From: Geothrix sp. 21YS21S-2
GTDB taxonomy: Bacteria; Acidobacteriota; Holophagae; Holophagales; Holophagaceae
Direction: 5' to 3'
Length of the DNA: 64,000 bases
Assembly (NCBI RefSeq): GCF_030846775.1
Contig: NZ_CP132910.1
Location: 3,072,001-3,136,000, forward strand
In this document: piece by piece, positions 5,345 to 33,758 of the stretch
Position numbering within the stretch: position 1 is the first letter of the stretch
How the letters are laid out: the number at the start of each line of letters is the position of its first letter
The notes under the pieces: model-generated
What the model saw: the letters and a program-made list of their open reading frames with translations, nothing else
Database searches by the model: none
What the model was told of the DNA's origin: nothing
Program-made: the position numbers and the translations under genes

Positions 5345-5480
5345 GGAAAACCCTTGATAATAAAATTATTAATTGCTGACTGAGTAGGTATATCAAGACG
5401 GTTATAGTATTATTTATGTTTTAGGTGCCAGGTGACGCAAAGTCGGAGAGATATGTAAAAAACGGAGAGAGAACAATCTC

Positions 5481-9154: not shown

Positions 9155-9224
9155 GTGGAAACGCTAGCGAATCGCGGCGATTGTGAAAAGAATAATGCTT
9201 GCCGCCCCTCTTTCACAGGATGTA

Positions 9225-11912: not shown

Positions 11913-11951
11913 AGGGGTTAAGCTGTCTTTAATTAATATTTCGAGGCCCTC

Positions 11952-13412
11952 ATGCATGTCCTAGGAACCTGGATCCGCCCCGTGACCCTGATCCTGGCTG
12001 CCGTGCCCCTGCTGCATGCCCAGGACGGCGACATGGCCGAGCGGCTCTACCGTTCCGGGGAGCGCGCCTACGCCGCGCACAGCTACCCCGAGGCCCTGGA
12101 GACCTGGAACCAGCTCGTCGCGCAGCTCCCCCAGTCCCCCTTCGCCGCCCGGGCCCTGCTCAGCCTGGCCCGGCACCAGATGGACGTGGAGAAGAAGCCC
12201 GAGGCCGCCACCCCCTTTCTCGAGAAGCTGAAGAACGAGTACCTCAAGACCCCCCAGGCCGGCGACGCCCTCCTCCTCCTGGGCAGGCGCAGGGCCGCGC
12301 GCAGCCACGCCCCCGCCGACATCAAGGAGGCCCTGGCCGACTTCAACCGGCTGGTGGACCTCTTCCCGGACCACCCCCTCGTGCAGGAGGCCCGGCTCCA
12401 GATGGGCCTGGCCCGGAAGCTCCAGGGCGAGTGGGGCCGGGCCCTCCAGGCCTTCACCGAGGCCATGCGCATGGACCCGGCCTCCCCCGCGGGCATCGCC
12501 GCCCAACTCCAGGCCGCGGAGACCCTCGACATCATGGGCGACCTCACGGGCTGCCTGCGCATGCTCCAGGACCTGAGGAACCGTCACCCCCAGGCCCCTG
12601 AGGCCCAGGAGGCCCAGTGGCGCATCCAGGTGCGGGTGCTCCAGCGCCTCCAGAAGCCCGCCCTAAAATCCATGGGCCCCTGGCCCCAGGGCAGGACCAA
12701 GTGGCTGAAGACCCCCACCCTCCTGGCCACGGGCCCCGAGGGCGGCCTTTACCTGTACCAGTCCGATGACGACCGCGCCTACCACTTCAAGGATGGGGCC
12801 CTGGTCCCCTCCGGCCCGGTGGTCAAGGGCGGCAAGGCCCTCCTGGTGCCGGCTCCGGGGACCACCTGGGTGGTGAGCGCCAAGTTCGGCCTGGTGAAGG
12901 AGGACGCGCCCCAGCCCGCCGCGCCCCCGCTGCCCTCCCCTTCCGGCGGGATGCTGGACACCTGGGGCAACGCCTGGATCTGCGACCCGGGATCGCAGGT
13001 CATCCAGGTGCTGGCAGGGGACGCCGCGCCCCGGCCCCTGCCCGTGCCCGCCGTGCAGGCCCTGGCCCCCCTTCCCGACGGCGGCGCCGCCGCGGCCTCG
13101 GACGCCACCCGGACCCTTCTCTTCCTGGACGCCGCGGGGCGGACCCGGGCCTCCGTGCCCTACGGGAAGGACCTCCCGGCCTCCTTCAAGTACGTGGTCT
13201 CCCTCGCCTCGGATCCGCTCGGCCACGTGGCCGCCCTGGTGGACGGGGACTTCGAAGGGGTGGTGGTGTGGGGGCCGGACGGTTCCGTGCTGCGCTCGGC
13301 CACCTACAAGACGCTGGGCATCGCCGGGAAGTTCCGGGCCGTCGCCCTGGACCGCGCCGGCGGGCTCATCCTCGCGGACCGCTCCAACGACTTGCTGATC
13401 AGGCTGCAATGA
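11952..13412 (+). CDS. Exported TPR protein with C-terminal beta-propeller-like region
   Basis: A 486-residue protein with a signal peptide (to about residue 23, LLHAQ). Residues 25-220 form TPR-type helical repeats of the kind seen in CpoB/YbgF and BamD (RLYRSGERAYAAHSYPEALETW, GEWGRALQAFTEAMRMDP). The C-terminal 240 residues are strand-rich repeats such as GMLDTWGNAWICDPGSQVI and FRAVALDRAGGLILADRS, resembling NHL/SMP-30-like propeller blades. A periplasmic scaffold is likely. GAGG lies 6 bases before the ATG, and the stop overlaps the start of the next gene (ATGA), so the two are coupled. Confidence 0.7.
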   Translation: MHVLGTWIRPVTLILAAVPLLHAQDGDMAERLYRSGERAYAAHSYPEALETWNQLVAQLPQSPFAARALLSLARHQMDVEKKPEAATPFLEKLKNEYLKTPQAGDALLLLGRRRAARSHAPADIKEALADFNRLVDLFPDHPLVQEARLQMGLARKLQGEWGRALQAFTEAMRMDPASPAGIAAQLQAAETLDIMGDLTGCLRMLQDLRNRHPQAPEAQEAQWRIQVRVLQRLQKPALKSMGPWPQGRTKWLKTPTLLATGPEGGLYLYQSDDDRAYHFKDGALVPSGPVVKGGKALLVPAPGTTWVVSAKFGLVKEDAPQPAAPPLPSPSGGMLDTWGNAWICDPGSQVIQVLAGDAAPRPLPVPAVQALAPLPDGGAAAASDATRTLLFLDAAGRTRASVPYGKDLPASFKYVVSLASDPLGHVAALVDGDFEGVVVWGPDGSVLRSATYKTLGIAGKFRAVALDRAGGLILADRSNDLLIRLQ

Positions 13413-15442
13413 TGCGACGTCTCCTCTGCCTCCTCCTCACCGCCTGCGCCGCCCTGGGCGCCCAGGATCCCGCCCTGCGGGACACGCTGGCCGCGGCCAA
13501 GGCCCTGTGGGCCACCCAGGGCGACCGGGACGGCGCCGCCGCCAAGTTCGAGTCCATCCTCGCCGCCCTGGAGCCGTCGGCACGCACCCTGGACGAGGGC
13601 TGGACCAGGGTGCTCTGCGAGGCCTACAACTGGACGGCGGTCCTGGACGACCGCACCGCGGGCAGGAAGGCCCAGGCCCCCAAGCGCCTGGAGAGCCTCC
13701 TGGAACTGGATCCCGACTACGAGATCGACCGCTCCATCACCAACCCCAGGCTGCAGGCCGCCTACGACGGGCTCCGCACGGCCCGGTTCGGCCGGGTGAA
13801 GCTCTCGTTGGACCCCGCGGGAGGCGTCCTCACCGTGGACGGCAAGCCCCGGCGCCCCGAGCCCGGCGTCCACTGGCTGGCCCCGGGCGCCCACGCCGCC
13901 GCCTATTCCCGGCTCGGGTTCCAGGGCCAGGACGTGAAGTTCGACGTGGCCCTCAAGGACACCAGGACCCTGGACTTCAAGCTCGCGCGCACGTCCTCGG
14001 TCATCACGGTCTTCACCTCCCCCGCGGGCGCCGAGCTGTTCGTGGACGGCAAGTCCCGCGGCTTTTCCCGGGGCCAGGCACCCGCGGACCGGAGCTATCT
14101 GGCCGACCGCGCCGGCGTGAAGCCCGACCAACTCTCGGAGGGCCTGCGCATCGCGGACCTGGCGCCCGGCAAGCACCTCCTCGAGGTGCGCCTGCCCTGC
14201 CACCGGACCCGCCGCATGGAGATCGCCGAGGCCCTGACCACCCCGTTCGCCGACGCCGATCTCGAACCCGTCAAGCTCGAGCCCAGCCGCGGCACCCTCA
14301 CCGTCCAGAGCGCCGTCCCCGGCGGCCAGCTGCTCCTTTCGGGCCTCGACATGGGCCGGGTGCCCGTGCGGGACCTGCAGGTCTGCGCCCAGGCCTACGA
14401 CCTCCAGGTGAAGTACGCCGCGGGCAGCTTCACCCAGCGCATCGAGGTGCTGGAGGGCAAGTCGCTCACCCTCGTGGCCCGGCCCAAGCCGCGCCTCACC
14501 TACGCGGGCTTCGAGGGGAGCGATGACTTCGCGGGCCGCGACCGGCTCCTGGGCATGCTGGCGTCCCTGGGCGGCAGGCTCCACGAAGTGGCCTTCATCA
14601 CCGCGGCCAAGGGCGAGTCCCTCAAGGACTGCCTGGCCCGCCTGCGGGCCACCCGCGAGACCGAGCTCCTGCTGTGGGCGCGGCCCGCCCCAGGCAGGCC
14701 CATCCAGCAGGTGGAACTGGTCCTCTCGACCCTCACCGGACAGGAGGAGCGCCTTGCCGTCATGCCCCTGGAGCAGGATCCCCTGGGGTCGCTGGCCGCG
14801 CGCATGGAGCGGCAGCCCGCGCTCTCCGAGCCCTGGGCCGGCCTCACCCTCCTGGACCTGCCCGAGGGCGCCCACGTCCTCACGGCCGACGCCGCCGCCC
14901 TCAAGGCCGGGATCAAGCCCGGCAGGATCCTCACCGAGGCCGGCGGCAGGCCCGTGGCCAACGTTGCGGACTTCCGCAGGGCCCTGGCCGAGGCAGGGGG
15001 CGGCAGCCTCGCCGTCTCGCAGGGGGATGCCCCCGTGAAGCTCACGGTCTCGCAGATGCCCGCCGAACTCCCCGTCAACTCCCCGGACCTCTGCTATCCC
15101 CTGGTCCTCTCCGACCTGCGCCTGCGCTACCTGGGGGCCCAGGGGGACGAGGCCTCGCTCCTGCGGCTCGACCAGGCCCTCGCCCTCATGCACTTCCGGG
15201 AGTACGACAAGGCCCTGGAGGTCCTTCGCGACGCCCGGATGGTGGGCGTCCAGGGCGTGAGCCAGGGCACCCTCGACTACTACACCGGCATCTGCCTCCT
15301 CCACATGGGCAGCGTCTATGTGCGCGACGCAGCCCAGTCCTTCACCCAGGCCCTGAAATACCCCCAGGCCACCCTGTTCGGTCCCGACGGGCCGCTGCTG
15401 GCGCCCCTGGCCCGGCAGGCCCTCCAGGACCTCCAACCCTGA
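13409..15442 (+). CDS. Exported PEGA-domain and PDZ-like protein with C-terminal TPR segment
   Basis: A 677-residue protein with a signal peptide (MMRRLLCLLLTACAALGAQ). Visible modules are PEGA-type segments at about residues 130-215 (VTVDGKPRRPEPG-like and FTSPAGAELFVDGKSRG), further strand repeats at about 280-355, a PDZ-like unit at about 475-550 with AALKAGIKPGRILTEAGG, and a C-terminal helical repeat segment (MHFREYDKALEVLRDARMVG) that resembles TPRs. PEGA proteins are surface or envelope proteins of unknown partner. The ATG at 13409 overlaps the previous stop; a second in-frame ATG follows directly. The DUF4845-like gene begins 18 bases after its stop. Confidence 0.68.
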   Translation: MMRRLLCLLLTACAALGAQDPALRDTLAAAKALWATQGDRDGAAAKFESILAALEPSARTLDEGWTRVLCEAYNWTAVLDDRTAGRKAQAPKRLESLLELDPDYEIDRSITNPRLQAAYDGLRTARFGRVKLSLDPAGGVLTVDGKPRRPEPGVHWLAPGAHAAAYSRLGFQGQDVKFDVALKDTRTLDFKLARTSSVITVFTSPAGAELFVDGKSRGFSRGQAPADRSYLADRAGVKPDQLSEGLRIADLAPGKHLLEVRLPCHRTRRMEIAEALTTPFADADLEPVKLEPSRGTLTVQSAVPGGQLLLSGLDMGRVPVRDLQVCAQAYDLQVKYAAGSFTQRIEVLEGKSLTLVARPKPRLTYAGFEGSDDFAGRDRLLGMLASLGGRLHEVAFITAAKGESLKDCLARLRATRETELLLWARPAPGRPIQQVELVLSTLTGQEERLAVMPLEQDPLGSLAARMERQPALSEPWAGLTLLDLPEGAHVLTADAAALKAGIKPGRILTEAGGRPVANVADFRRALAEAGGGSLAVSQGDAPVKLTVSQMPAELPVNSPDLCYPLVLSDLRLRYLGAQGDEASLLRLDQALALMHFREYDKALEVLRDARMVGVQGVSQGTLDYYTGICLLHMGSVYVRDAAQSFTQALKYPQATLFGPDGPLLAPLARQALQDLQP

Positions 15443-15460
15443 ACCCCCGAAAGGAACGCC

Positions 15461-15856
15461 ATGACCGAAAACCGCAGGAATGAACGCGGCGAAGGCAAGA
15501 TCGGCTGCATCGTCAGCCTCCTGGTGCTGATCATCGTGGGCGCCGTGGCCCTCAAGGTCGTGCCCGTGCTCTACGCCAACAACAGCCTGGTGAATGCCGC
15601 CGAGGACCTGGGATCCCGGGCCGGCATCATGCCCGCGGCCGCCCTGGAGCAGCAGCTGCGCGCCAAGGCCGCCGAGCTGGAGATCCCCGAGGCCCTGGCC
15701 AAGGGCTGCATCACCTTCACGGTCCTCGGGGACCACAACGCCGGCACCTGCGTCATCAAGCTCAAGTACACCCAGAAGCTGGATCTCTACGGCGCCTACA
15801 CCCTGCCCATCTCCACGGACAAGACCATCAGCCGGCCGTACATGGACGCCAGGTAG
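15461..15856 (+). CDS. DUF4845-like membrane-anchored protein
   Basis: A 131-residue protein with a basic N-terminus, one membrane segment (about residues 15-34, IVSLLVLIIVGAVALKVVP) and a small periplasmic domain. The layout of an anchor followed by KVVPVLYANNSLVNA and a final strand pair (YTQKLDLYGAYTLPIS) resembles DUF4845 proteins, whose role is unknown. GAAAGGAA lies 7 bases before the ATG. It sits between the PEGA protein gene and the sigma-54 activator gene and is cotranscribed with them by spacing. Confidence 0.6.
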   Translation: MTENRRNERGEGKIGCIVSLLVLIIVGAVALKVVPVLYANNSLVNAAEDLGSRAGIMPAAALEQQLRAKAAELEIPEALAKGCITFTVLGDHNAGTCVIKLKYTQKLDLYGAYTLPISTDKTISRPYMDAR

Positions 15857-15874
15857 GGGGTGTAGGGTGGGGGG

Positions 15875-16837
15875 GTGAGGAACGCGCCCCCCGAACCCGA
15901 GCTGCTGACCGATGGGTCCGAGCCCATGGGGGCGGTGCTGCGGGAGCTGGATCTCGTCGCGCAGACCTCCCTGACCGTTCTCATCCTGGGCCCCTCCGGG
16001 AGCGGCAAGGAACTCGCCGCGCGGGAACTGCACCGCCGATCCGGCCGTTCAGGCCCCCTGGTGCCGGTGAACTGCGCGGCCCTGGCCGAAGGGGCGCTGG
16101 AATCCGAGCTCTTCGGCCATGTACGGGGGGCCTTCACGGGCGCCGACCGGGACCGGCCAGGAGCCCTTGTGTCGGCTTCGGGGGGGACCGTCTTCCTTGA
16201 CGAAGTGGCCGACCTATCAGCCCGGACCCAGGCGATGCTGCTAAGAGTTCTGCAAGAAAGCGAGATCCGCCCCCTCGGCAGTGACCGGTGGAGACCGGTG
16301 AACCTGCGATTCGTAGCTGCCACAAATCAGCCCCTGGAGGAGATGGTGCGGACCCGGCTGTACCGGGAGGATCTCCTCCACCGGCTCCAGGGCTCCGTGC
16401 TGGTTACACCGGCTTTGGCGGAACGGGGCCATGAATTCCACTACCTAGTGCCGCGCCTTGTGGAACGCATCTCGCTGGCTCTCGGCCGGAACGGGCCGCC
16501 CTTGGAACCCGGCCTATGCGAGGCGCTTGCCGCCCAGTCCTGGCCTGGCAATGTGCGCCAGCTCCTCCACTGCCTTGAACGCGCCCTCCTAAGGTGCGGG
16601 AAGGGGCCTCTGGGGTCAGAACATTTCCCCGAGCTCGCCAAGGCACCAGGCATCCCGCTGCCTTGGCAGGAAGCCACCCTGGCGTTCCAGCGGCGCCACC
16701 TCCTGGAGTCCCTCGGCCGCAGGGGGTTCCACGCCGCCGAAACGGCCCGGGACCTGGGGCTCAGCCGCACCGCTCTCTACGCCACCGCCCGGCGCCTTGG
16801 GGTGGACCTGGCCCAGGAGCGACGGCGCAAGGGCTGA
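15875..16837 (+). CDS. Sigma-54-dependent transcriptional activator lacking a receiver domain
   Basis: A 320-residue AAA+ enhancer-binding protein. Walker A is GPSGSGKE (about residue 38), the sigma-54 contact loop GAFTGA (about 84), Walker B TVFLDEV (about 104) and the sensor 2 motif WPGNVRQL (about 224). A Fis-type helix-turn-helix ([20 protein letters not shown]) closes the protein. There is no N-terminal sensory domain: the AAA+ domain starts within 20 residues, so activity may be controlled by a partner, as with PspF. It uses a GTG start, 18 bases after the previous stop. Targets are unknown; the nearby genes are candidates. Confidence 0.9.
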
Positions 16838-17208
16838 CCATCGGCGGACACCCCGTGCGCCGGCCGAACGTGGCGGCGGGACCGCCCCCCGGGTAGGCCA
16901 CGCAGGGCCTCAATGGGCTCGCAAGGGCCGGGTAGGCGCCCCTGTCAAGCGTCACAAGTATTGACCACGGGTGGGTCAATGATTAAGTCGGTTGACTGCG
17001 GACGCTGGGTATCGTCCTTCGGACCCCGTGAACCGACAGAAATCCGCCATTCTCGCCCAAGCCCTGGCGGTGGAAGGGAAGGCTGGGCACCCTGGCGGGG
17101 CTCCCCGGCTTTGGCGTATCCTGATCTTCAGCAAAGGTTGTCCTGGATCTTCCATGCAGATAAGTTCGCCCGCCCTGCCAAGGCGCGCCACCCTTCCGGA
17201 GGGCCCCA
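16838..17208. other. Non-coding stretch at the left edge of the lower-G+C island
   Basis: No convincing gene in these 371 bases. Open frames exist but have mixed codon use and no good start. The stretch contains one inverted repeat (16960-16980). G+C falls from the level of the flanking activator gene toward that of the glycosylation genes, so the island boundary is probably here. Confidence 0.5.
16960..16980. repeat. Perfect inverted repeat, possible operator
   Basis: Two 7-base arms (ATTGACC at 16960-16966 and GGTCAAT at 16974-16980) flank a 7-base spacer. There is no T run, so it is not an intrinsic terminator. The 14-base centre-to-centre spacing fits a dimeric regulator site. No linked regulator is evident. 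Confidence 0.35.
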
Positions 17209-17380
17209 ATGACCGAACAACAGGCTGCCCTGGTTGCAGGGGCCCAATGCCCGGGCGGCTGCGGCCTCACGGAAGAAGGTTCTGAACAGGGCAACCGGAT
17301 ATGCGGATTTCAGTTTGGACAGAAGAGTCGCCTGGGTCAGCGGGGCACTAGGTAGAGCGGAAATTGGGGAGGCCCGATGA
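17209..17380 (+). pseudogene. Probable frameshifted small gene coupled to the FkbM gene
   Basis: ATG 17209 has GGAGGG 5 bases upstream and starts MTEQQAALVAGAQ. This frame stops after 48 codons (17353-17355) and has an odd tail. In the +1 frame, an open stretch runs from 17213 to a TGA at 17378-17380 with a more protein-like sequence (AAASRKKVLNRATGYADFSL) and overlaps the ATG of the FkbM gene by 4 bases (ATGA). A single frameshift near 17215-17245 would join a good start to a coupled stop. I infer a decayed or frameshifted ~55-residue gene; the alternative is that neither frame is real. Confidence 0.3.
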
Positions 17381-18003
17381 TTAATTTTTTCAGCCACTTG
17401 CACTCCCGCCGACTCAGGATCAGGAATTTCCTCGAAATCGGTTCCCGGGATGGCGAAGATGCCAATACCTTCGCAAAGGCCGCTGGTATTCGCCAAGTCC
17501 ATGTCATCGAGCCGGCACCTCAGTCCTTTGCGCGGATCCAGGCCCATTTCCCCTTCTTCCAGGTTTACAACCTGGCCTTGTCAAACCGAAACGGGCATCA
17601 GGTGTTTCACAACATTGTCGATCCTGACCTCAATAAGCAGGGAATGAGTTCTCTGATGCCAAGGGAGATCTACGAACGATTCCCCTCGGAGAATATTTTA
17701 GTTGAACTGATGCGGGGCGACACATTTCTCGATAAATATGGGATCCAAGACATTTCAGCATGCAAGATCGATGTCGAAGGCCATGCTGTGGAAGTCCTTG
17801 AAGGTTTTGGGACAGAACTGACTCGCATCCATGCCATCCATCTGGAATGCGAGACGGTGCCGGTTTGGGAGGGCCAGCGACTTTTCGGCGAAGCGAAGGC
17901 ATTGCTGGAAGGAAGGGGCTTCCAGATGGTCAGCTACTGGGAGTACAACCAGCCGACAACCCAATGCGATTCGATTTGGCTCCTGGCCCACAACCGTGCA
18001 TGA
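17377..18003 (+). CDS. FkbM-type SAM-dependent methyltransferase
   Basis: A 208-residue class I methyltransferase of the FkbM type. The SAM loop is FLEIGSRDGEDA near residue 18. IEPAPQSFARIQ is the acidic ribose-binding strand, and ACKIDVEGHAVEVLEGF near residue 128 is the family's KIDVEG signature. FkbM enzymes O-methylate sugars or other small molecules, often in surface glycan gene clusters. It is the first gene of the lower-G+C island. The next gene starts 9 bases after its stop. It is probably cytoplasmic and acts on a nucleotide sugar or glycan of this cluster. Confidence 0.82.
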   Translation: MINFFSHLHSRRLRIRNFLEIGSRDGEDANTFAKAAGIRQVHVIEPAPQSFARIQAHFPFFQVYNLALSNRNGHQVFHNIVDPDLNKQGMSSLMPREIYERFPSENILVELMRGDTFLDKYGIQDISACKIDVEGHAVEVLEGFGTELTRIHAIHLECETVPVWEGQRLFGEAKALLEGRGFQMVSYWEYNQPTTQCDSIWLLAHNRA

Positions 18004-18012
18004 GGAAGCCCA

Positions 18013-19125
18013 ATGCCAATCCTGGAAGATGCCTTCGGCACACGGCGCAAGAAAAAGGCCCTCCTATGTGGCGCGGTAGAAGGTCTTGTGGACAGGGAGT
18101 CCATGAATTTTTTCCACACAAACACCCATGAGGCATTTGAACAAGGATTGGCCCTGCACGAATCGGGCTATTCGGTTGATGCCATCGACCATTGGGCTGA
18201 ACCCCCCCGAGGGTATGGCGAATATGACGTCATCCTGGGCCTCGGGCGGGCCCTGGTCGAGTGCCATTCGGGTGGCCGGCGCCCCAGACGGGTCCTTCTT
18301 TACTCCCCCGGCATCCACAACCAGGTCCAGAATCTCCGCACTCTGGACCGGGTCAAGGCCTTCAGGGAGAGGTATGGCCCCTGCCTCCTGGAGTCCGGTC
18401 GGTTTGCGTCGGAGGATTTCACCTCCATCGCCTCCCTTTGCGATGCAGTGCTGGTCCTCGGCAATGAGGCCACTGCCGCGACTTATCATGGCCGGACCTC
18501 CAGCGAGATTTTCATCATCCGGGCATTTTTCCATCACCTCGTGGACGGGGCGGCCCTCGCCCAGCGGAAGGACCCCAGGAAGGCCGGCCGGGGATTTCTT
18601 TGGTTCGGCAGTGCCGGCCTCATTCACAAGGGTCTCGACCTCCTCCTGGAGGTCTTTCTCGCCCGCCCATGGCTTGAACTTTATGTTTGCGGTCCTCTTG
18701 AAGGGGAAGGGGCCTTTGGACGGGTGTTTCAATCCCGTCTGGCAGCGTCGAGGAATATCCATATGATCGGAATGGTCCGGATTGGAAGTCCTGAGTTCCT
18801 GCGGATCGCGGAACAATGCGGCTTTGCGGTTCTTCCTTCCTGCTCCGAGGGTGGGGGGGTAAGCCTGCTCTCTGCTGTCGGAAACGGTGGACTTCTCCCC
18901 GTGGCAACTCTGGAGGCAAGCGTCGAGCTCGGTACCTTTGGCATTCCCATTGCGGGCTGCAGCGAAGCCCTGGTAGCCCAAGCGATCGAATCGTGCGAAG
19001 TCCTCCCCGTGGAGGAGCGGCTTGCCCGGACCTTGCAAGCAATAGACTTTGTGAATTCCGGCCACACCCTCGAAATGCACCGGAAATCCCTTCGAGCAGC
19101 CCTCTCGACGGTCCTGGCCGAATGA
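18013..19125 (+). CDS. GT-B-type glycosyltransferase
   Basis: A 370-residue protein resembling GT-B glycosyltransferases of the GT4/GT1 type. The second Rossmann-like half is visible as FLWFGSAGLIHKGLDLLLEVF near residue 197 followed by LELYVCGPLEGEG near residue 222, and an E-x-G segment (CSEGGGVSLLSAVGNGG near residue 277) matches the donor-binding region. The first half is less conserved (SMNFFHTNTHEAFEQGL). GAGGA lies 7 bases before the ATG. Together with the FkbM gene and the large enzyme downstream it probably builds or decorates a surface glycan. Donor and acceptor are unknown. Confidence 0.75.
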   Translation: MPILEDAFGTRRKKKALLCGAVEGLVDRESMNFFHTNTHEAFEQGLALHESGYSVDAIDHWAEPPRGYGEYDVILGLGRALVECHSGGRRPRRVLLYSPGIHNQVQNLRTLDRVKAFRERYGPCLLESGRFASEDFTSIASLCDAVLVLGNEATAATYHGRTSSEIFIIRAFFHHLVDGAALAQRKDPRKAGRGFLWFGSAGLIHKGLDLLLEVFLARPWLELYVCGPLEGEGAFGRVFQSRLAASRNIHMIGMVRIGSPEFLRIAEQCGFAVLPSCSEGGGVSLLSAVGNGGLLPVATLEASVELGTFGIPIAGCSEALVAQAIESCEVLPVEERLARTLQAIDFVNSGHTLEMHRKSLRAALSTVLAE

Positions 19126-19193
19126 ACTTGGCGCAAAGCTTGCTCGGTAGGCACTTTGTATGCACCCACGCTATCTAACCCCTGGAGCTTTCC

Positions 19194-22100
19194 ATGCCCG
19201 ACGCTGAGATCCGTGACTTCGAGACATGCTGGTGCGGGGGCAAACTGGTAGATGGAGTCCACCCTGGGTATGGCAGTTGTACGTCCTGTGGAACCCAGGT
19301 GAAATGGACGGGCTATGGCGAACAAGCACTGAAAGCCCTGTATGCATTCGGCCCCTACTGGAACGGCGAAGGCGCGGACCACCCGGAGACGCCTGGCCTG
19401 ATCGCGGAAAGAGCCTTGCATGACTTCAATGACCGGATTCCGGAATGGTTCGAGCGGCTCACCCGGCGCAATGGCGTTCCTGATCGGCTCCTCGAAATCG
19501 GATGTGGTCACGGCGGCTTTCTCCGGTATTGCCTGGATCGCGGCACGAAGCGTGCTGTCGGCGTGGAGGTGGACGAAGCCACTTGCGCATTCGCAAGGAG
19601 GGAATTCGGTCTCGCAGAGGTCTACCCGGGTCTATTCCCTGCCGTCGCCATCCCTGAGCCCCGGTTTGATGCGGTCGTAGCGTTCGATGTGCTCGAACAC
19701 GTGCCGGACCCACTCGGGTTCCTGCGCGGTATTGCTGGGCTGCTGGAGGAGAAGGGCAGGCTCCTGCTGCAGACACCCATCTTTGACGGAGAGGGTGCGG
19801 ACTGGTACCCATTCGAGAGCCCGGCCCACTTGAACTTGTTCTCAGGCAAGGCTTTGGTTCGCCTCTTCGAGGCAGCGGGCCTTGAAGTCCAGGAGCTCCT
19901 TTGGGCGCCGTTCCCGTACGACGCACTCATTTTGGGCCGTAAGGTCAAGGCCTCAGCGGGCGTGCGAATTGCCGGCGAGGGGGCTGGGGATAAGGACCTG
20001 ACCGTGGTTGAGGGCAATTCCGATTTCTCCACCGCCATGGACCGGGTCTTCCGCAACAACCGGCCGGCCAAGGTGCTTGAAACGGGCACTTACCTGGGCA
20101 CCGGTACGACCCGTACCTTGGCCATCCTATTGCGCGACTACAAGATCGATTCCCCCAGGTTCTTCAGCCTTGAAGTGAACCCCTCCAACCATCTGCAGGC
20201 TAAGGAGAACCTTGGAAGAGATGGCCTATTGGCAATGGTGGAACCCCTTCTTGGCCTTTCCGTGCCAAGAACCCGATTGCCGGGGCTGGCGGAAATCGAG
20301 GAGGCCATGGTGAGGAACATGGCCTTCAAGGATGTCTATGTGGACCACCAGGAAAACGAGCGGTCTAGGCTGTACGCCCAGGAAACAGATTTTTCCGAGG
20401 TCCCCGATGATCTTCTCCGCCAATGCCTGAAAGCGTTCGGATATCGGCCTGACCTCGTGCTCCTTGACAGCGGAGGCCATATGGGCTTCGTGGAATTCCA
20501 GTATCTCCTGGAACTCCTTGAAGGCCCTTGCACGATCGCCCTTGACGACGTGTTCCACGTCAAGCACCGGCGAAGCCTCCAGTGCATCCTCGAGGATCCC
20601 CGGTTTGACCTGACCTACCTATCGCGGGAAAAATTCGGGTTCTGCGTGGCGAAATTCGATCCGGGCAGAGTACCGGCCAAGCCCCACGTGGAAAACATCC
20701 TTTGGGTCCGACTGGATGCCGTTGGAGACAACCTTCTTGCCGCCTCCATGCTGGAAGGCGTAAGTGGCCATTTCCCAGATGCCCGGATTACCGTGCTCTG
20801 CCAGCCACGAGTAGCCGAGCTGTACGAGGCATGCCCATTTGCTGATGAAGTCTACCCGGTCGACAAGCAACTGGCTCTGGGTGGAGGCCCCTACCTCCAG
20901 GACCTGATCCGGGACCTGACCCACAGGCACTTCGATCTCTGCCTGCATAGTGTCTACTCAAGGGAGCCGCTGGCGGACGTCCTCACCGGGATGTGCGGGG
21001 CCTTGCGCCGGGTGGGCCACTTCGGGGACGACCATAACCGCAATCCCAGGGAACGGCCGGCTTTGGACGCGTTGTATACGGATCTCGTTCCTGCGCAGGA
21101 GGACTGGGCCTTGGAACTGGATCGACATAAATCCTTCCTCCAATACCTGGGCATCGAACCTAAGGATCTGCAACCAGAGGTCTGGTTCACTCCAGAGGAC
21201 GTCCAGGCGGTCGAAGCCATTTTAGGGGAGGAGAAGCTTCAGGACAGGAAGCTGGTGGCACTCTTTGCGGGGGCCCAATGGGAATCACGGATCTACGAAG
21301 GCTATGGCCTGGCCCTGGCCCCCGTCCTGAAGGACCACCCTGAGCTTGCTGTTGTCGCCCTTGGTGTCGAGGCAGAACAGGGGATCAATCAACGGCACCT
21401 CGACCTGTTCCCGACGGCTGGGGTGAATTTGTGCGGGCGCCTGACACTTCGCCAATGCGCCGCATTGATGAAAAGATGTGCCCTCGCGGTTGGCGCAGAA
21501 ACCGGCCTGGCCCATATGGCCTGCGCGGTTGGCCTCCCGAATGTGGTGGTACTTGGCGGGGGGCACTTCGGCCGGTTCATGCCGTATTCCCCTCTGACGA
21601 CGTGTTCGGTCCTGCCTCTGTCCTGCTATTTGTGCGATTGGAACTGTCCATATGAACGCCCGTATTGCGTCAAGGACCTTTCTCCTGAAGTCCTCACGAG
21701 GGCAGTCAGAACGGCCATGGAAGGCAGATCCGAGGTCCCTCTCCTGGTGGCCCAGGATGGCTGGGAACAAACGTGGAATGGCCCAAACGCAATTGATTTA
21801 AAACCAAACCTGGATCTCGCCAGGGTGGGGCTGGAAACGGTTACCGTGGCCGCGCCCCAGGGCCCTGCACCGGTTCTTTCGCTGGTGGTTCCGTCCATCG
21901 GGCGGCCAAAGCGCCTCGAGGCCATGCTCGCGAGCGCACACGCGTCATTGGGCACCATCCCTTGGGAAGTAATAGGGATCTGCCCCAGCGGCGACCAAAG
22001 CAGCCGGGAGGTATTCCAGAAGATGGGAGCCAGGATTGTTCTGGCGGATGAGGACTACCTGGGCACAGACGGCAAGTTCAGCTGGTCCCTCCTCATGAAC

Positions 22101-23576
22101 GCAGGCTTCGCAAAGGCCAGGGGCAAGTGGGTGATGTATGGCAGCGATGACCTTTTGTTCGAACCCGATTCCTTGCCGCGGCTGCTTGCCTATGGAGAGC
22201 TGGCAGGCATCAAGGTTGGTGGCCTTTCGCTGATGGAACACAACCCCGGCTGGCAGGGGTACCCCGATTGGTGGGCTCCCATGGGGTCCGACGGCTGGTT
22301 GATGATCAACTTCGGGATCGTGCGCAAAACCGCATGGGAGGCCGTGGGGGGATTCTTCCCGGGCTACCATTTCTATGGCGCGGACTGGGATCTCTGTTAC
22401 CGAATCCATGCTGCGGGCTGGCAGATTCTGCCCGTATGGGATGCGCGTGTCCACCACAATCAGGAAGGGGACGAAGTCAAGAAGAGCCATGAAGAGCGAT
22501 GGCAAGAGGATAAGGACCTTATGGAGGCGCGGAAGCACCTTCGCCCTGCACACCAGATCGCGGTCAGTCAGGGCCTGACGGCCCTCGCTGCGGCCGGGGC
22601 CCGGACGTTCGCCGCCAATATCTTTCATGATCAAGTCCGTTCCCTGCTCTCCATGGATGCTGCCCGCTTGACGTCCACACTTGAGCTTTGGCTTGAGTTG
22701 GCACCCAGGGCGGGTTTCCTCTGGGCCTTAAAAGCCGAGTTCCTCGATGGAGACGGAGCCGCCCAGGCCGAGCGGGAAGACTCACTGGAACGGGCCGATG
22801 CCCTCGGATGGGACTTTGGCCACGAAAGCGGCCAGAAGCCATCGCTGGCGCGGGCCACCGTCCTTTGCGCCGTTTGGCACAAGGACCCCGACCGCCTGGA
22901 ACGTCTGCAGGGGCACCAGTCCTGCCTGGATGCCCAGTCCGTAGCGGTGGACCGGATCTATGTCTTCGACGCCGGGGATACCGTCCCCAATTGGTTGAGG
23001 GGAACAGCCCTCGTTTCCCGGGAGCCTCTCAGAATCTATGAAGCCTGGAACCTGGCCCTCAGCCAAGTAAAGACCCCCTTTGTCATCAACCTGAACCTGG
23101 ACGACCGGCTGAACCCGGATGCGGTGGAATTGTTTCTGAAAACCTTGGAGGGGGGGGCGGACCTGGTGGCAGGCGATTGGCGCGTTTGCTTCTCACAGGC
23201 GGAAACGGATGCCGTCACACCGAGCATCCTTGCGAAAGAACTGCCCTTCAATCCCGTCTGGCCCCCTAGCCAAGGGGAGTGCGTAAGACTGGGGAGTGGC
23301 ACCGGAGAACGCGCGACGCTCGGTCCTGCCACCGGATGGCGCACGGCCCTGCACGGCGAATTGGGTCGCTATCCCTTCGCCTTCAATGATGGAAGCACCA
23401 TTAACATCATCGGTGATTCACTTTGGTGGCAACGCCTCCTGTCCAAAGGTAAGCGAGTTCTTCGCTTGCCTGTTATCGTGGGCCGCTATTTCAGCCATCC
23501 CGGAGATCAGGCAGAATTTCGCACCCCTGCCTCCACCGAACATGAAAAAGCCTTGGGCATCGGGGTTATGTGGTAG
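19194..23576 (+). CDS. Giant fusion: two methyltransferases and three glycosyltransferases
   Basis: One uninterrupted 1460-residue frame. Reading order: a zinc-ribbon-like CxC...CxxC (C12, C14, C29, C32); a SAM methyltransferase (LLEIGCGHGGF near 99, FDVLEHVPDP near 164); a second methyltransferase-like unit (VLETGTYLGTGTT near 293, LVLLDSGGHMG near 420, DDVFH near 450); a GT9/heptosyltransferase-like unit (WVRLDAVGDNLLAASML near 503, GAETGLAHMACAVG near 767, CYLCDWNCPYE near 811); a GT2-like unit (SLVVPSIGRPKRLEAML near 897, YGSDDL near 982, GADWDLCYRIH near 1062); and a final GT2-like unit (NLNLDDRLNPDAV near 1297). The DD motifs are the expected metal/donor sites. GGAG lies 7 bases before the ATG. 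Such enzymes are usually separate polypeptides. Domain calls rest on motifs read by eye. Confidence 0.8.
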   Translation: MPDAEIRDFETCWCGGKLVDGVHPGYGSCTSCGTQVKWTGYGEQALKALYAFGPYWNGEGADHPETPGLIAERALHDFNDRIPEWFERLTRRNGVPDRLLEIGCGHGGFLRYCLDRGTKRAVGVEVDEATCAFARREFGLAEVYPGLFPAVAIPEPRFDAVVAFDVLEHVPDPLGFLRGIAGLLEEKGRLLLQTPIFDGEGADWYPFESPAHLNLFSGKALVRLFEAAGLEVQELLWAPFPYDALILGRKVKASAGVRIAGEGAGDKDLTVVEGNSDFSTAMDRVFRNNRPAKVLETGTYLGTGTTRTLAILLRDYKIDSPRFFSLEVNPSNHLQAKENLGRDGLLAMVEPLLGLSVPRTRLPGLAEIEEAMVRNMAFKDVYVDHQENERSRLYAQETDFSEVPDDLLRQCLKAFGYRPDLVLLDSGGHMGFVEFQYLLELLEGPCTIALDDVFHVKHRRSLQCILEDPRFDLTYLSREKFGFCVAKFDPGRVPAKPHVENILWVRLDAVGDNLLAASMLEGVSGHFPDARITVLCQPRVAELYEACPFADEVYPVDKQLALGGGPYLQDLIRDLTHRHFDLCLHSVYSREPLADVLTGMCGALRRVGHFGDDHNRNPRERPALDALYTDLVPAQEDWALELDRHKSFLQYLGIEPKDLQPEVWFTPEDVQAVEAILGEEKLQDRKLVALFAGAQWESRIYEGYGLALAPVLKDHPELAVVALGVEAEQGINQRHLDLFPTAGVNLCGRLTLRQCAALMKRCALAVGAETGLAHMACAVGLPNVVVLGGGHFGRFMPYSPLTTCSVLPLSCYLCDWNCPYERPYCVKDLSPEVLTRAVRTAMEGRSEVPLLVAQDGWEQTWNGPNAIDLKPNLDLARVGLETVTVAAPQGPAPVLSLVVPSIGRPKRLEAMLASAHASLGTIPWEVIGICPSGDQSSREVFQKMGARIVLADEDYLGTDGKFSWSLLMNAGFAKARGKWVMYGSDDLLFEPDSLPRLLAYGELAGIKVGGLSLMEHNPGWQGYPDWWAPMGSDGWLMINFGIVRKTAWEAVGGFFPGYHFYGADWDLCYRIHAAGWQILPVWDARVHHNQEGDEVKKSHEERWQEDKDLMEARKHLRPAHQIAVSQGLTALAAAGARTFAANIFHDQVRSLLSMDAARLTSTLELWLELAPRAGFLWALKAEFLDGDGAAQAEREDSLERADALGWDFGHESGQKPSLARATVLCAVWHKDPDRLERLQGHQSCLDAQSVAVDRIYVFDAGDTVPNWLRGTALVSREPLRIYEAWNLALSQVKTPFVINLNLDDRLNPDAVELFLKTLEGGADLVAGDWRVCFSQAETDAVTPSILAKELPFNPVWPPSQGECVRLGSGTGERATLGPATGWRTALHGELGRYPFAFNDGSTINIIGDSLWWQRLLSKGKRVLRLPVIVGRYFSHPGDQAEFRTPASTEHEKALGIGVMW

Positions 23577-23946
23577 CTCTCCTTGCCAAAAGCCCGTCCG
23601 GATTCAACAATTTCGACAATGGTGGGGCTCCGTGGTGCCCAAGGGTGACGTTGGTGCCAGGCCCCTGGAAGACCTTCACGGTTCTCGCCAGGAGGTGCAC
23701 CGGGAAGTGTCTCCGGCAGTTTGGAGGAACCGCCGGCCAAAGACCGCCGATCCCCAATAAACACCTGAATCTGAAAGCCAAGGAAACGGACGTTCCGGGT
23801 CGCAAGCAGCGTCTCCACCAGCCAAAGGCCGAAAATGCCAATGCAGCCGTTGCACAGGAGCCTTGCTCAGGCCTCGTTTCCCCTCAGTCAGCCTAGGTGC
23901 GTTGGCCCGGATGAGGAGGTTTTGACAAGCGCAATAGCCACATGAT
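23577..23946. other. Non-coding or decayed stretch at the right edge of the island
   Basis: No supported gene in these 370 bases. A plus-strand frame from a GTG at 23570 runs 108 codons to 23896, overlapping the end of the large enzyme, but its composition is basic and irregular. Two leftward frames (to 23818 and 23841) also stay open but lack a start context and recognisable motifs. I read it as gene debris between the island and mutL. Confidence 0.4.
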
Positions 23947-25710
23947 CTAAGCCCGCCGCCCGAAGCTCCGCTCCAGCTCCGTCCGCGTCAGTTTCTTGAT
24001 CACCGGCCGCCCATGGGGGCACGTGTGCGGCACCTCGCAGGCCATGAGGTCCTCGATGAGGCGCTGGGCAAGGTCGGCCGGGAGGTGGTGGTGCTTCTTG
24101 ATGGCGCTGCGGCAGCTGAGCTCGGCGTTGAGCTCCCGGCGGAAGTGGTCCAGGTCCACCCGGCCCAGCTCCTCCAGGCGCTGGAGCAGGTCGGCCAGCA
24201 GGGCCTCGGGGTCCCGGTCCATGAGGAAGTCCGGCAGGCCGCGGACCACCACGGCGTCCTCGGCGAAGGGCTCCACCTCCATGCCGGCTTCGGTGAAGGC
24301 GTCCAGAAAGGGGGTCAGGCGAGACATGGCCTCGGGGCCCACGCGCACCACCCGGGGGGGCATAAGGGGTTGCACGGCAGGCTGGTGTTTGCGGAGGAAG
24401 TGGCGCTCGTAGAGGATGCGCTCGTGGGCCACGTGCTGGTCCACCAGCCACAGTTCGGGTTCGGCGCCGCCGGTCACCTCGGCCAGGAGGTAGGTGGAAT
24501 CGAAGGAACCCAGGTAGCGCACGGCGGGCCCATGGAGGGGTTCCGCCACACGGGCGGGTTCCTCCCGGCGGGGGAAGGCCGCTTCCAGGGCCTGGTAGGT
24601 GCCGGTGCCGGCCGAGCCCGCGGCGGACCACAGGTGGGGGTGTTCGGCGGCCACGGGGGCCAGGGGGCGGTCCAGTTCCGGTTCCAGGGGGCGGGGGGGG
24701 AGGTCCAGCACGGAGGCCAGGCCGCCGCGCAGTTCGCTCCAGGCCTCGCGAAGGGCCCGGCCCACCCAGGGGAAGATGCGCTGGGGCTCCCGGAACCGCA
24801 CTTCGGCCTTGGTGGGGTGGACGTTCACGTCCACCGCGTCGGCGGGCACGTCCAGGAAGACCACGGCGGCGGGATAGGAGCCCTTGGGGAAAAATCCCTC
24901 CCAGGCCGAGGCCAGGGCCGCCAGCAGCAGGCGGTCCCGCACGGCGCGGCCGTTGACGAAGAGGTAGAGGTGGTTGCGGTCCCGGAAGCTGAGCTCGGGG
25001 GGGGACACGTAGCCGTGGAGGGTCCAGGGGGCCGTGCCGTCCCGGAAGGGGACCAGGGCGGTGAGCTTGTCGCCCAGGAGGGGCCCCAGGCGGGCGCCGG
25101 CTACCGGGACGGCGGGGAGGGCGAGGCGGCCGCTGCGGTCGGATTCCAGCACCCAGTGGATGGCGGGCGTGGCCAGGGCCATGCGGGTCACCACGCCCCA
25201 CAGGTGGGCGTGCTCGGTCTCGGTGGCCTTGAGGAAGCGCTTGCGGGCCGGGAGCTGGGCGAAGAGGTCCCGCACGGTGATCGTGGTGCCCCGGGACCGG
25301 CTGAAGGGCTGCACCTCCTTGATGACGCCGAACTCGCACCGCAGGCGGTGGCCGGCGCCGTCCTGCTCGGCCGAGGCCATGTCGAAGCGGCTCACGGAGG
25401 CGATGGAGGGCAGCGCCTCGCCCCGGAAACCGAAGGAGGCCAGGTGGCCCAGGTCGTCGGCCGTGCGCACCTTGCTGGTGGCGTGGCGCTCCAGGGCCAT
25501 GTACAGGTCGTCCCGGGCCATGCCGCAGCCGTCGTCGGCCACGTCCAGCATGCGCTTGCCGCCCTCCTCCCAGCGCACCTCCAGGCGGGTGGCGCCGGCG
25601 TCCAGGGCGTTCTCCACCAGTTCCTTGAGCACGGAGGCGGGACGCTCCACCACTTCGCCCGCGGCGATCTGGTTGGCCACCTGGTCGGGAAGGACGCGGA
25701 TGCGGGGCAT
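23947..25710 (-). CDS. mutL: DNA mismatch repair protein MutL
   Basis: A 587-residue MutL. The GHKL ATPase motifs are VENALDAGA near residue 33, DDGCGM near 59 and GFRGEALPS near 93. The C-terminal domain carries DQHVAHERILYE near residue 425, matching the DQHA(x)2E(x)4E endonuclease motif with A to V, and CPHGRP near the C-terminus, so this is the endonuclease-type MutL, not the E. coli type. A proline-rich linker (about 325-390) joins the halves. The start lies 1 base after the stop of the upstream glycosyltransferase gene, so the two are coupled. mutS is not in the window. Confidence 0.95.
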   Translation of the reverse strand: MPRIRVLPDQVANQIAAGEVVERPASVLKELVENALDAGATRLEVRWEEGGKRMLDVADDGCGMARDDLYMALERHATSKVRTADDLGHLASFGFRGEALPSIASVSRFDMASAEQDGAGHRLRCEFGVIKEVQPFSRSRGTTITVRDLFAQLPARKRFLKATETEHAHLWGVVTRMALATPAIHWVLESDRSGRLALPAVPVAGARLGPLLGDKLTALVPFRDGTAPWTLHGYVSPPELSFRDRNHLYLFVNGRAVRDRLLLAALASAWEGFFPKGSYPAAVVFLDVPADAVDVNVHPTKAEVRFREPQRIFPWVGRALREAWSELRGGLASVLDLPPRPLEPELDRPLAPVAAEHPHLWSAAGSAGTGTYQALEAAFPRREEPARVAEPLHGPAVRYLGSFDSTYLLAEVTGGAEPELWLVDQHVAHERILYERHFLRKHQPAVQPLMPPRVVRVGPEAMSRLTPFLDAFTEAGMEVEPFAEDAVVVRGLPDFLMDRDPEALLADLLQRLEELGRVDLDHFRRELNAELSCRSAIKKHHHLPADLAQRLIEDLMACEVPHTCPHGRPVIKKLTRTELERSFGRRA

Positions 25711-25711
25711 G

Positions 25712-26989
25712 TCAGCAGAGCTCCAGGAGTCGGGTGAGATCGGGGTGGCCGGGGAAGGCCGCCAGGCCCAGGGTGATGACCTGGCGCCCCTCGGCCGCGG
25801 CGCCCTGGCGCAGGAGGAAGATGCCCACGAGCTTGTGCCAGCTGCCGTCGCCCCCCTGGGGGCAGTGCTGGATGGCTACCCAGGCGTCCCGGACGGCCTG
25901 CTCCAGCAGGCCCTCCTCCACGCCCAGGCGCACGAGGCGGCCCCACAGGGAGGCGTCCGATGGCGCGGCCTCCAGGCCGGCCAGCAGGACGGTCCGGGCC
26001 GCGTCCTGGGCGCCGGCCCTCGCGTGGAGGTCGGCCAGGTCCAGGTACGCCGTGGTGTAGCCGGGGGACTCCCGGATGCAGGCCTCCAGGAGGGCCCGGG
26101 CCTCCTCGCGGCGCCCCAGGCGCTCCAGGGAGACCCCCCGGCCCACGGCGGCGGGGATGCTGCCGGGAAGCTCGGCGAAGACCCGCAGGGCCTCCTCGTG
26201 GCGCCCGCTGCGCTGGAGCGCGGTGCCGTGGGTGAGGCGCAGGGTCGGGGGGACCTCCGGCGACAGGGCGCGATAGCGTTCGGCGGTGCGGACGGCCAGC
26301 TCCCAGTCCTCGGCGGCGGCGGCCTGGATCACCACGTTGAAGAGGCTCAGGAGGTCCTCCGGGCGGTCCTGGGCGTCCTTCAGGGCCAGGTCCAGGTACA
26401 CGGGCTTCTTGGCCTCCACGCGGTCGGCGAGGGTGAAGCCGTAGTGGTGGATCACCGTGTCCAGGTCCGGGAGGGGACCCGGGAAGGAGGCCTCAACGCT
26501 CTCGTGGATGCGGCCCCGGAAGGCCACGCCCGGAAGGCGCCTGAAGAGCCGAACGGCCCGGGTGTCGCCGCAGGCCGGCCAGGAAGCCCCCTCGGCATAC
26601 CCGCCGGGGTTGGGCCGGGCCTGGGTGTCCATCATCGTGTAGGCGGCGTCGGGCAGGTAGCTGCGGATGAGCACCCGGTAGGCGTCGGCGCCCCCGCAGG
26701 CCGCGCGCAGGGCGGCGTGGTCCCTGGGATCCACGGCCTCGTCGGCGTCCAGCACCAGCACCCAGTCGCCCGTGGCGTGGGCCAGGCTGGCGTTGCGGGC
26801 CGCGGAGAAGTCGCCGTTCCAGGGGAACGGGTGCACCGCGGCGCCCCTGGCCCGGGCCAGGGCCACGGTGCCGTCGGTGGAGCCGGTGTCCACCACGACG
26901 ATCTCGTCCACGAGGCCCCGGACGGAGTCCAGGCAGTGGCCCAGGTGGGCCTCCTCGTCCTTCACGATCATCGAAAGCGACAGCTTCAT
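25712..26989 (-). CDS. GT2 glycosyltransferase with C-terminal TPR repeats
   Basis: A 425-residue protein. Residues 1-110 are a GT2 (GT-A fold) catalytic core: SLSMIVKDEEAHLGHCLDSV, VDTGSTDGT near residue 34, the metal-binding region LVLDADEAV near residue 77. This form (SCDSV-type start, W-x-F/G-D-F-S-x-A-R-N) is common in SunS/lipopolysaccharide-core-like GT2 proteins with TPR tails. Residues 210-420 are TPR repeats (RSGRHEEALRVFAELPG, RLGRREEARALLEACI). It precedes mutL by one base on the same strand. It might glycosylate a protein or envelope glycan; the acceptor is unknown. Confidence 0.85.
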   Translation of the reverse strand: MKLSLSMIVKDEEAHLGHCLDSVRGLVDEIVVVDTGSTDGTVALARARGAAVHPFPWNGDFSAARNASLAHATGDWVLVLDADEAVDPRDHAALRAACGGADAYRVLIRSYLPDAAYTMMDTQARPNPGGYAEGASWPACGDTRAVRLFRRLPGVAFRGRIHESVEASFPGPLPDLDTVIHHYGFTLADRVEAKKPVYLDLALKDAQDRPEDLLSLFNVVIQAAAAEDWELAVRTAERYRALSPEVPPTLRLTHGTALQRSGRHEEALRVFAELPGSIPAAVGRGVSLERLGRREEARALLEACIRESPGYTTAYLDLADLHARAGAQDAARTVLLAGLEAAPSDASLWGRLVRLGVEEGLLEQAVRDAWVAIQHCPQGGDGSWHKLVGIFLLRQGAAAEGRQVITLGLAAFPGHPDLTRLLELC

Positions 26990-27004
26990 CCGGTAAGGAT
27001 AAGC

Positions 27005-27817
27005 CTATATTGCAAGATCCCGCAGGAAGGTCCGCACGAGCTTCTCGAAGCTTGCGGCCGCGGCGGCGCCGGCCTCCAGGACCTCGGCGTGCGTGAGGGG
27101 CTGGGGGAGCATGCCCGCGGCCATGTTGCACAGGCAGGAGATGCCCGCGGCCTTCATGCCCTCGTGGCGGGCCACGATCACTTCGGGCACGGTGCTCATG
27201 CCCACGGCGTCGGCGCCCAGGGTGCGGAAGGCGCGGATCTCGGCGGGGGTCTCGAAGCTGGGGCCGGTGACGGCGAGGTAGACGCCCTGCTGCACGTCCT
27301 GGCCCAGCGCCTTGGCGGCCGCCAGGATCTGCGCGGAGAGGGCGGGGTCGTAGGCGCCGGTCATGTCCGGGAAGCGGGGGCCGGGTTCCTGGTTGGGGCC
27401 GATGAGCGGGTTGGTGCCCATGAGGTTGATATGGTCGTTGATGACCATGAGCTGGCCCACCTTGAAGCCCGCGTTCACGGCTCCGGCGGCGTTGGTGTGA
27501 ACCACGGCCTTCACCCCGAGCCGCGCGTGCATGCGCATGGGGGCCGTGACCAGCGACATGGGGTTGCCTTCATAGAAATGGAAGCGGCCGGCCTGAAGCA
27601 CGACCTTCCGGCCTTCCAGCTCGCAGAAGATGAGCTTGCCCTGGTGGCCCTGCACGGTCTGCACGGGAAAGCCCAGGTCGGTGAAAGGGATGGACACGCC
27701 TGCCTTGGCCTCGACGCAACCGGCCAGGGCTCCGAGTCCCGAGCCCAGCACGAGGGCCAGGTCCGGCACGAACGGGGCACGGGCCCGGAGGATTTCGAGT
27801 GCGGGCTGGATGTTCAT
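27005..27817 (-). CDS. Purine nucleoside phosphorylase (PNP class I, trimeric type)
   Basis: A 270-residue enzyme that cleaves purine nucleosides with phosphate to base and ribose-1-phosphate. Family signatures: LVLGSGLGAL near residue 22 (phosphate loop), GHQGKLIFCELEG, HFYEGNP near residue 84, HTNAAGAVN near 113, and MSTVPEVIVARH near residue 213. Length and motifs match the trimeric inosine/guanosine-type enzyme. The ATG overlaps the stop of the upstream lipoprotein gene by one base (TGATG), a surprising coupling of a salvage enzyme to an envelope protein. It works with the nucleoside transporter at 5893-7299 in the same pathway but is not linked to it. Confidence 0.93.
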   Translation of the reverse strand: MNIQPALEILRARAPFVPDLALVLGSGLGALAGCVEAKAGVSIPFTDLGFPVQTVQGHQGKLIFCELEGRKVVLQAGRFHFYEGNPMSLVTAPMRMHARLGVKAVVHTNAAGAVNAGFKVGQLMVINDHINLMGTNPLIGPNQEPGPRFPDMTGAYDPALSAQILAAAKALGQDVQQGVYLAVTGPSFETPAEIRAFRTLGADAVGMSTVPEVIVARHEGMKAAGISCLCNMAAGMLPQPLTHAEVLEAGAAAAASFEKLVRTFLRDLAI

Positions 27818-29781: not shown

Positions 29782-29884
29782 GATCACCTCGTACAACCGC
29801 GCAAAGGCCAAGCCTAACATGCCAAACCCAAACATGCTCGTTCCAGGCAGGGATGCTGCGAACGGACGAGAGGTTCTGTAAAAA

Positions 29885-30850: not shown

Positions 30851-30963
30851 GGGTTCTCCTCATGCGGGAACGGGAATCAGGTGGTGGGACGCTAGCAACC
30901 CTCCTGGGGATCACCCCATGGTGGACAATCGGAACTCTGATCCTAGCCAGCACATTTCCCCAA

Positions 30964-31039
30964 CGCAAACGAAAATGCATTCCGTTTGCGCCGAATGGAA
31001 TCAAGGAAATAGCGCATCACCCTTTGTTTTCAGGGTGAT
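30964..31039. repeat. Two hairpins between moaC and the LysM-M23 gene
   Basis: A perfect 8-base inverted repeat (30964-30971 with 30983-30990) and a second 8-base one (31016-31023 with 31032-31039). The second lies 37 bases past the moaC stop and could end that transcript, although no T run follows on the minus strand. The first lies in the likely promoter region of the LysM-M23 gene and could be an operator. Neither role is proven. Confidence 0.45.
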
Positions 31040-31075
31040 CAATGGCAGCCGGGCAGCGGCTGGAAAATGGCGGCA

Positions 31076-32223: not shown

Positions 32224-32274
32224 GCAAAAACCTCCATGGGTCCGATTCTCCCATGGGGCCGGGCCGGGCGGCCT

Positions 32275-33645: not shown

Positions 33646-33758
33646 GGCGTCTCCTGGGGAGGGGCCTCTACCATAGCCCCAGGGCGGGAACCCGGAAAGG
33701 GGAATCCTCATGCGGGCCGCGGGCGCAGTACAATCCTCGGGAACAACCAGGAGAAGGC

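Follow-up and report, generated by a model that had tools for sequence, protein, structure and literature searches.

What occupies the interval between a sigma-54 activator gene and mutL in Geothrix sp. 21YS21S-2 (Acidobacteriota; Holophagae; Holophagales; Holophagaceae), and by what route did it come to be there? The question concerns a stretch of 64,000 nucleotides of this genome (NCBI RefSeq assembly GCF_030846775.1, contig NZ_CP132910.1, positions 3,072,001 to 3,136,000 of the forward strand), referred to throughout as the window, in which positions 16838 to 23946 form a block with three called genes. A sequence-only reading had taken this block for a surface-glycan module recently gained by horizontal transfer. 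The block probably represents what currently fills a replacement-type glycan slot delimited by the activator and mutL. Its horizontal gain is well supported, and the gap appears to be a recurrent exchange slot in the family, in which the relatives' versions are near-empty or hold mostly other glycan sets.

Composition of the block and the same gap in relatives

The gap from the activator stop codon (16837) to the mutL stop codon (23947) measures 7.1 kb and is fully occupied by a segment of low G+C content. Block G+C was 59.7%, compared with a mean of 68.9% (standard deviation 2.2, minimum 62.5%) over 100 windows of 7 kb drawn from 20 samples of 20 kb of the same 5.25-Mb genome, none of which was as low, and the tetranucleotide correlation of the block with the genome sample was 0.252, below all 100 windows (mean 0.839, minimum 0.654). 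In 500-base steps, G+C was 0.528-0.638 in all 14 steps between 17000 and 23999, whereas the 38 steps taken from the flanks (8000-16999 and 24000-33999) had values of 0.636-0.748, and a fit of two change points over 10-30 kb had its optimum at 16940 and 23950. The G+C content of third codon positions (GC3) was 0.62, 0.67 and 0.70 in the three block genes, in order, 0.94 in mutL and 0.96 in the next gene; the genome sample had a mean GC3 of 0.906 over 254 called genes, of which nine were at 0.70 or below. The steps, the GC3 values and the change points thus bear out the earlier claim of a weaker third-position G/C bias at about 16.9-23.9 kb, with a sharp change at both edges and no uniformity across the block. 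The activator itself had a GC3 lowered to 0.80, and the composition anomaly therefore starts slightly to the left of the block start. The borders were also as first described, non-coding or decayed: 539 bp on the left (16838-17376, low in G+C from about 16940) and 370 bp on the right contain no intact gene, the latter holding a broken epimerase.

The corresponding gap, defined as the interval from activator to mutL (in congener G001 a 131-amino-acid gene takes the place of the activator), was sought in a family sample of 37 genomes, comprising this genome (G000), its congeners G001-G005 and further relatives. It was measurable, by subtraction, in the 24 genomes with both flanks on one contig. 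The remaining 13 were left out of the count, either as the flanks lay on different contigs (G003, G004, G021 and G032) or 242 kb apart (G013), or for want of an activator orthologue or mutL match (G006, G007, G012, G016, G020, G024, G027 and G029); in G004, which has 8% contamination, mutL is in pieces on three contigs. Eleven of the measurable gaps were smaller than 210 bp, three were 0.5-1 kb and ten were 2.4-30 kb. Glycan or sugar-nucleotide genes were recognised in nine of these ten filled gaps, and the contents mostly differed, in a scan that covered part of the gap genes. Apart from the block in G000, the recognised genes comprised a UDP-sugar dehydrogenase, nucleotidyltransferase, DegT, GT2 and others in G001; NeuB, UDP-GlcNAc 2-epimerase, DegT, FkbM, GT2 and radical SAM in G002; a cytidylyltransferase, GT2 and methyltransferase in G005; related sets of C-methyltransferase, DegT, formyltransferase and GT2 in G008 and G025 (the latter read by homology to the former); a TylF methyltransferase in G009; three GT2 stretches in one protein together with a C-methyltransferase in G014; and GT2 plus GT4 in G018. 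Glycan genes also adjoin mutL in G003 and G004, though their gaps were not closed, and in G001, which lacks the activator at this position, the 131-amino-acid gene is directly adjoined by a glycosyltransferase-type gene.

Across six genomes, 8 of 56 GT2 domain matches fell in this gap, which makes up 62 kb out of 24.4 Mb, against about 0.14 expected, and without G000 the count was 6 of 43, against about 0.12 expected. The same gap of the compared relatives lacked the block, which is thus conserved neither in presence nor in order among close relatives. At a threshold of 1e-6, no BLAST counterpart of the first two block genes (encoding an FkbM-family protein and a protein of 370 amino acids) was found in the relatives' loci examined, although FkbM-domain proteins as recognised by Pfam do occur in the G002 and G003 gaps. 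Of the claim of recent horizontal gain, the gain stands; its putative recency is drawn from composition and from absence in congeners. The picture of a single insertion, however, gives way to a gap that has been refilled recurrently in the family and an activator that was probably exchanged too.

Border genes and competing explanations

On the left, the last gene of normal divergence encodes the conserved 131-amino-acid protein (15461-15856, plus strand; no Pfam match under E 0.05), which has 89% identity and a synonymous divergence (dS) of 0.18-0.19 in G002 and G005 and is kept to the left of the gap in other genera. It is followed by the sigma-54 activator (15875-16837, plus strand), a protein of 320 amino acids with an AAA+ domain (PF00158, 5e-55) and no N-terminal regulatory domain, in which divergence is raised. 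On the right, the boundary gene mutL (23947-25710, minus strand; PF01119 and PF08676) has normal divergence, with dS of 0.19 and 0.26. Homology between G000 and its congeners ends at both sides, at the mutL stop codon (23951-23953; G001, G002, G003 and G005) and at 16809-16821 near the activator end (G002, G004 and G005). DNA identity to G005 and G002 in 150-base steps was 0.79-0.97 from 13701 to the activator start and 0.59-0.79 inside the activator. Activator dS was 0.87 against G005, compared with 0.16-0.53 for 13 other window genes, and 1.03 against G002, compared with 0.18-0.44 for 11 other window genes. The rows 13268-15442 and 27817-29835 were dropped from the G002 comparison, as a nonsynonymous divergence (dN) of 2.6-3.1 at 82-88% identity denotes a broken codon register; in another run the former gave dN 0.07 and dS 0.30, and the latter was faulty in both G002 pairs. 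G003, in which the activator start and remainder lie in different frames, perhaps through a frameshift, was left out of dS. In pieces of 40 codons, dS was raised from the first piece onward, with noise. These values among three close congeners (G000, G002 and G005) can be read as a mark of exchange by homologous recombination, such that the left-edge activator, too, was probably subject to exchange.

Alternatively, the activator could be diverging fast by itself, under relaxed or positive selection and without recombination. Its dN is also high (0.26-0.29), its identity declines along the gene, it has 320 amino acids in this genus and about 1000 in other genera, and the contrast with its neighbours is weak against G004. 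Further, a tree of the activator recovers the genus as one group (86/95), with a changed position for the nearest sister only, and therefore does not by itself show import from outside the genus. However, synonymous divergence is raised too, and in seven pairs from other genera the activator and mutL have similar dS (ratio 0.86-1.25). A shift in the GC3 of G000 could inflate dS, yet the pair G002-G005, both near 0.9 GC3, gives 0.79 for the activator and 0.25-0.39 for other genes. Selection on the activator without recombination is a doubtful explanation.

That the block came in by one illegitimate or element-borne insertion, into a gap that was empty and with no special exchange at the slot, is a less probable account again. 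It agrees with the gaps below 210 bp in 11 of the 24 measured genomes, with edges that lie between two convergent genes, a harmless place, and with an inverted pair of 16 nucleotides (15 of 16 matching) that spans the block, a level reached by none of 25 shuffled flank pairs. The arms of this pair, however, lie inside the flanking genes (16800-16815 in the activator and 24146-24161 in mutL), not at the block ends, where the same repeat search found no terminal repeats. Moreover, other glycan sets occupy the gap in each of the three further congeners in which it was measurable (G001, G002 and G005), the G002-G005 pair also has a raised activator dS, the Pfam scan found no transposase or integrase family among the three block genes, and the window contains no tRNA. 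The last alternative, an ancient native locus with a low G+C that stems from unusual codon usage of glycan genes and which relatives lost differentially, is very improbable: glycan loci are often low in G+C, and this genome has a second low-G+C region close to glycan genes, but the called gap genes of G001, G002, G003 and G005 have a G+C of 0.61-0.74, nearer the genome level, the tetranucleotide correlation of the block is below that of every sampled window, and the first two block genes lack BLAST counterparts at 1e-6 in the relatives' loci examined, notwithstanding the FkbM domains in two of them.

If the block is instead the present occupant of a replacement-type slot, incoming DNA would have recombined through the conserved flanks on the activator side and the mutL side, displacing an older set except for a broken epimerase near mutL. 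What is left of this NAD-dependent sugar epimerase (23681-23899, minus strand) has two in-frame stops and 42% identity over residues 18-86 (69 residues) of a G004 protein. The right-edge tblastx match had an E-value of 1.9e-7, compared with 5.7e-5 for the best of 20 shuffles in three-base blocks, and was confirmed by a whole-genome search (E 1.8e-4). G001 and G002 carry stop-free relatives (48%) in the corresponding gap. The remnant at the mutL edge suggests an earlier slot occupant. It may have been left behind by a displaced set or have arrived with the block, whose composition it shares. A candidate remnant in the left edge was rejected, its best tblastx match among those listed (5.2e-7) being weaker than the best of 20 shuffles (1.2e-8).

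Several observations weigh against a replacement-type slot. No donor was found for the block, and the filled gap of G011 holds non-glycan genes, a multicopper oxidase and a periplasmic-binding-type protein. The gap sets of G001 and G002 are partly common, and therefore not every refill is a full replacement, while the set common to G008 and G025 means that the enrichment counts are not independent. The dS of the activator exceeds the mean dS of the other genes by a factor of about 3.6. Lopez-Perez and colleagues (PMC4033161) give a factor of 4-34 over the average of the neighbours for synonymous peaks in genes that border replacement islands, and the value here falls slightly short of that range. 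They describe a tendency, not a definition, for such peaks to lie on the origin side. The position of dnaA (3.306 Mb in G000, 1.2 kb in both G001 and G002) places mutL on the origin side and the activator on the terminus side, and mutL shows no dS peak. The activator contrast is weaker against the more distant G004, at 1.07 for G000 compared with 0.45-0.60 for three flank genes, and at 0.75 for G005 compared with 0.58-0.60 for flank genes. The comparison is between species, with one genome for each and no pair of strains from the same species. The inverted pair might hint at another mode of entry, or be due to chance given coding sequence and hindsight.

Predicted functions and regulation of the block genes

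The assignment of the block to glycan synthesis rests on gene families, and all three genes look glycan-type, as the sequence-only reading had held, the second on weak evidence. The first (17377-18003, plus strand) encodes an FkbM-family methyltransferase of 208 amino acids (PF05050, 7.9e-17; TIGR01444, 3.9e-19). The second (18013-19125, plus strand) encodes a putative GT4-type glycosyltransferase of 370 amino acids with sub-threshold matches only (PF13692, E 0.0035; PF00534, E 0.015), relatives in 10 of 395 other genomes of the phylum (34% for the best by E-value) and no sequence match in the PDB. The third (19194-23576, plus strand) encodes, in a single open frame, a fusion of 1460 amino acids with five domains. 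These are a class I methyltransferase domain at residues 80-234 (19431-19895; PF13489, 5.1e-26); a weakly assigned catechol-O-methyltransferase-like domain at residues 256-488 (19959-20657; PF13578, E 0.01; PDB 4p7f, E 0.001); a GT9 heptosyltransferase-type domain at about residues 495-850 (20676-21743; PF01075 at 646-814, 4.4e-15; PDB 3tov, E 7.7e-4); a GT2 domain at residues 895-1098 (21876-22487; PF13641, 3.6e-11 as an isolated segment); and a C-terminal GT2-like domain at residues 1219-1457 (22848-23564; PF00535 at 1279-1335, 5.9e-6 as an isolated segment). Single-sequence structure predictions of the 370-amino-acid protein and of fusion residues 256-488 had mean pLDDT values of 36.2 and 36.6 and were not used.

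The five-domain order was not found elsewhere among 60 genomes, this one included, or in a scan of GTDB contigs with six short peptide patterns; both recovered only parts, in the scan mainly the C-terminal domain. No viral contig matched the peptide patterns. In congener G003, a single open frame next to mutL unites the GT9 and C-terminal GT2-like domains (44% and 59% identity). The C-terminal domain is shared with other bacteria; its relatives at 50-59% identity occur in seven loci and include two alphaproteobacterial proteins in which an FkbM domain precedes it (L141:9368-10735 and L142:9389-10768), a joining that suggests a mobile pair of functions. A further pocket of glycosyltransferase and methyltransferase genes, beside aroC-like and haem-synthesis-like genes as judged by eye, is present in G015 (L129) and G023 (L131) and holds relatives of the first methyltransferase domain of the fusion.

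The products of the block would act in the cytoplasm, where a glycan or glycoprotein would receive sugars from the glycosyltransferase domains (GT9, two GT2 and one GT4-like) and be capped or decorated by the FkbM and other methyltransferase domains. That the glycan is a surface one is suggested by the gene families, with lipopolysaccharide (LPS), capsule, flagellin or another acceptor as candidates. In the Pfam scan the three genes included no transporter, flippase, polymerase, ligase or ABC exporter family, and export would therefore depend on machinery elsewhere. Other GT2 matches in G000, near 3.00-3.01 and 3.52-3.53 Mb, mark glycan loci that could supply it. The region 2960001-2980000 of this genome is also low in G+C (62.5% in 7 kb, with several genes at GC3 0.58-0.67) and lies near the GT2 and epimerase matches at 3.00-3.01 Mb, possibly as the main polysaccharide locus. 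Within the window but outside the block, low GC3 values (0.77, 0.43 and 0.61) were seen at 4283-5759 and 46384-47238, with no Pfam match.

A candidate sigma-54 promoter site with one mismatch (19129-19144, plus strand) falls in the 68-base spacer that separates the second block gene from the fusion gene, on the strand of the latter and 50 bases upstream of its start. It is the single one-mismatch match of the window to the consensus. Shuffles over 64 kb gave an expectation of 1.73 such sites, and 17 of 100 Markov sequences of block length held at least one; the match may be due to chance. At up to two mismatches, the window had 16 matches compared with 25.5 expected, with none between the activator and the FkbM gene. 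Among 13 gap stretches from relatives, a one-mismatch site was found in one, inside a called gene. The site is thus suggestive by its position in this genome, as a lead and not as a family-wide rule. A general promoter scan found four compared with 1.5 expected, terminators were at chance level, and the window had no Rfam match at gathering scores. It is conceivable, though rather unlikely, that the shortened activator is part of the exchanged unit, swapped with the adjoining glycan set and controlling it through this site; if so, every exchange would deliver a new glycan plus a matching switch. In other genera the activator forms the C-terminal part of an open frame of about 1000 amino acids (L074:1714-4758, L080:2706-5501 and L149:5139-8165), the first 600 or so residues of which match no convincing Pfam family, and in G030 and G035 a gene resembling EPSP synthase by eye precedes this frame.

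Relation to known islands

The slot fits a known kind of locus, the replacement flexible genomic island, described in Alteromonas, Vibrio, Pelagibacter and others (PMC4033161, PMC4119200). The likeness lies in a shared place in related genomes, in differing sets of similar kind and in a raised dS of a border gene. The sets may also serve similar exposed structures, to judge by the glycan or sugar-nucleotide genes in nine of the ten filled gaps. Unlike those islands, the block is 7.1 kb long with three genes only, the comparison is between species and not strains, the dS peak is on the terminus side only and the slot is almost empty in many relatives.

LPS O-antigen and capsule loci similarly have fixed flanking genes that enclose a variable content of glycosyltransferase, methyltransferase and sugar-nucleotide genes, but the block is without their flippase, polymerase, ligase or ABC exporter genes. 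Flagellin glycosylation islands have a similar mix of transferases and methyltransferases, and a NeuB-type gene is present in the G002 set with a relative in G001; the nearest flagellin match here, however, is about 0.28 Mb away. PF01973, which we take to cover bacterial Maf proteins, had no match in 12 genomes, with its control positive in archaea only, and the model may not suit bacterial Maf. A transposon or integrative element differs from the block in the transposase, integrase and tRNA features that are missing here.

Among the matches listed in a literature search covering few subscription journals, no report was found of a glycan exchange slot beside mutL in Holophagaceae. By analogy with published cases, a swap of the set would alter the glycan that is exposed, with phage pressure as a plausible driver. 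The results point to a fixed near-origin slot in Holophagaceae, about 0.2 Mb from dnaA, for the exchange of glycan sets, with a dS mark in the regulator beside it and with what may be left of an earlier occupant. This would extend the replacement-island pattern to a group for which no such report was found among those matches, and would provide a defined locus for the study of surface-glycan turnover in Acidobacteriota.

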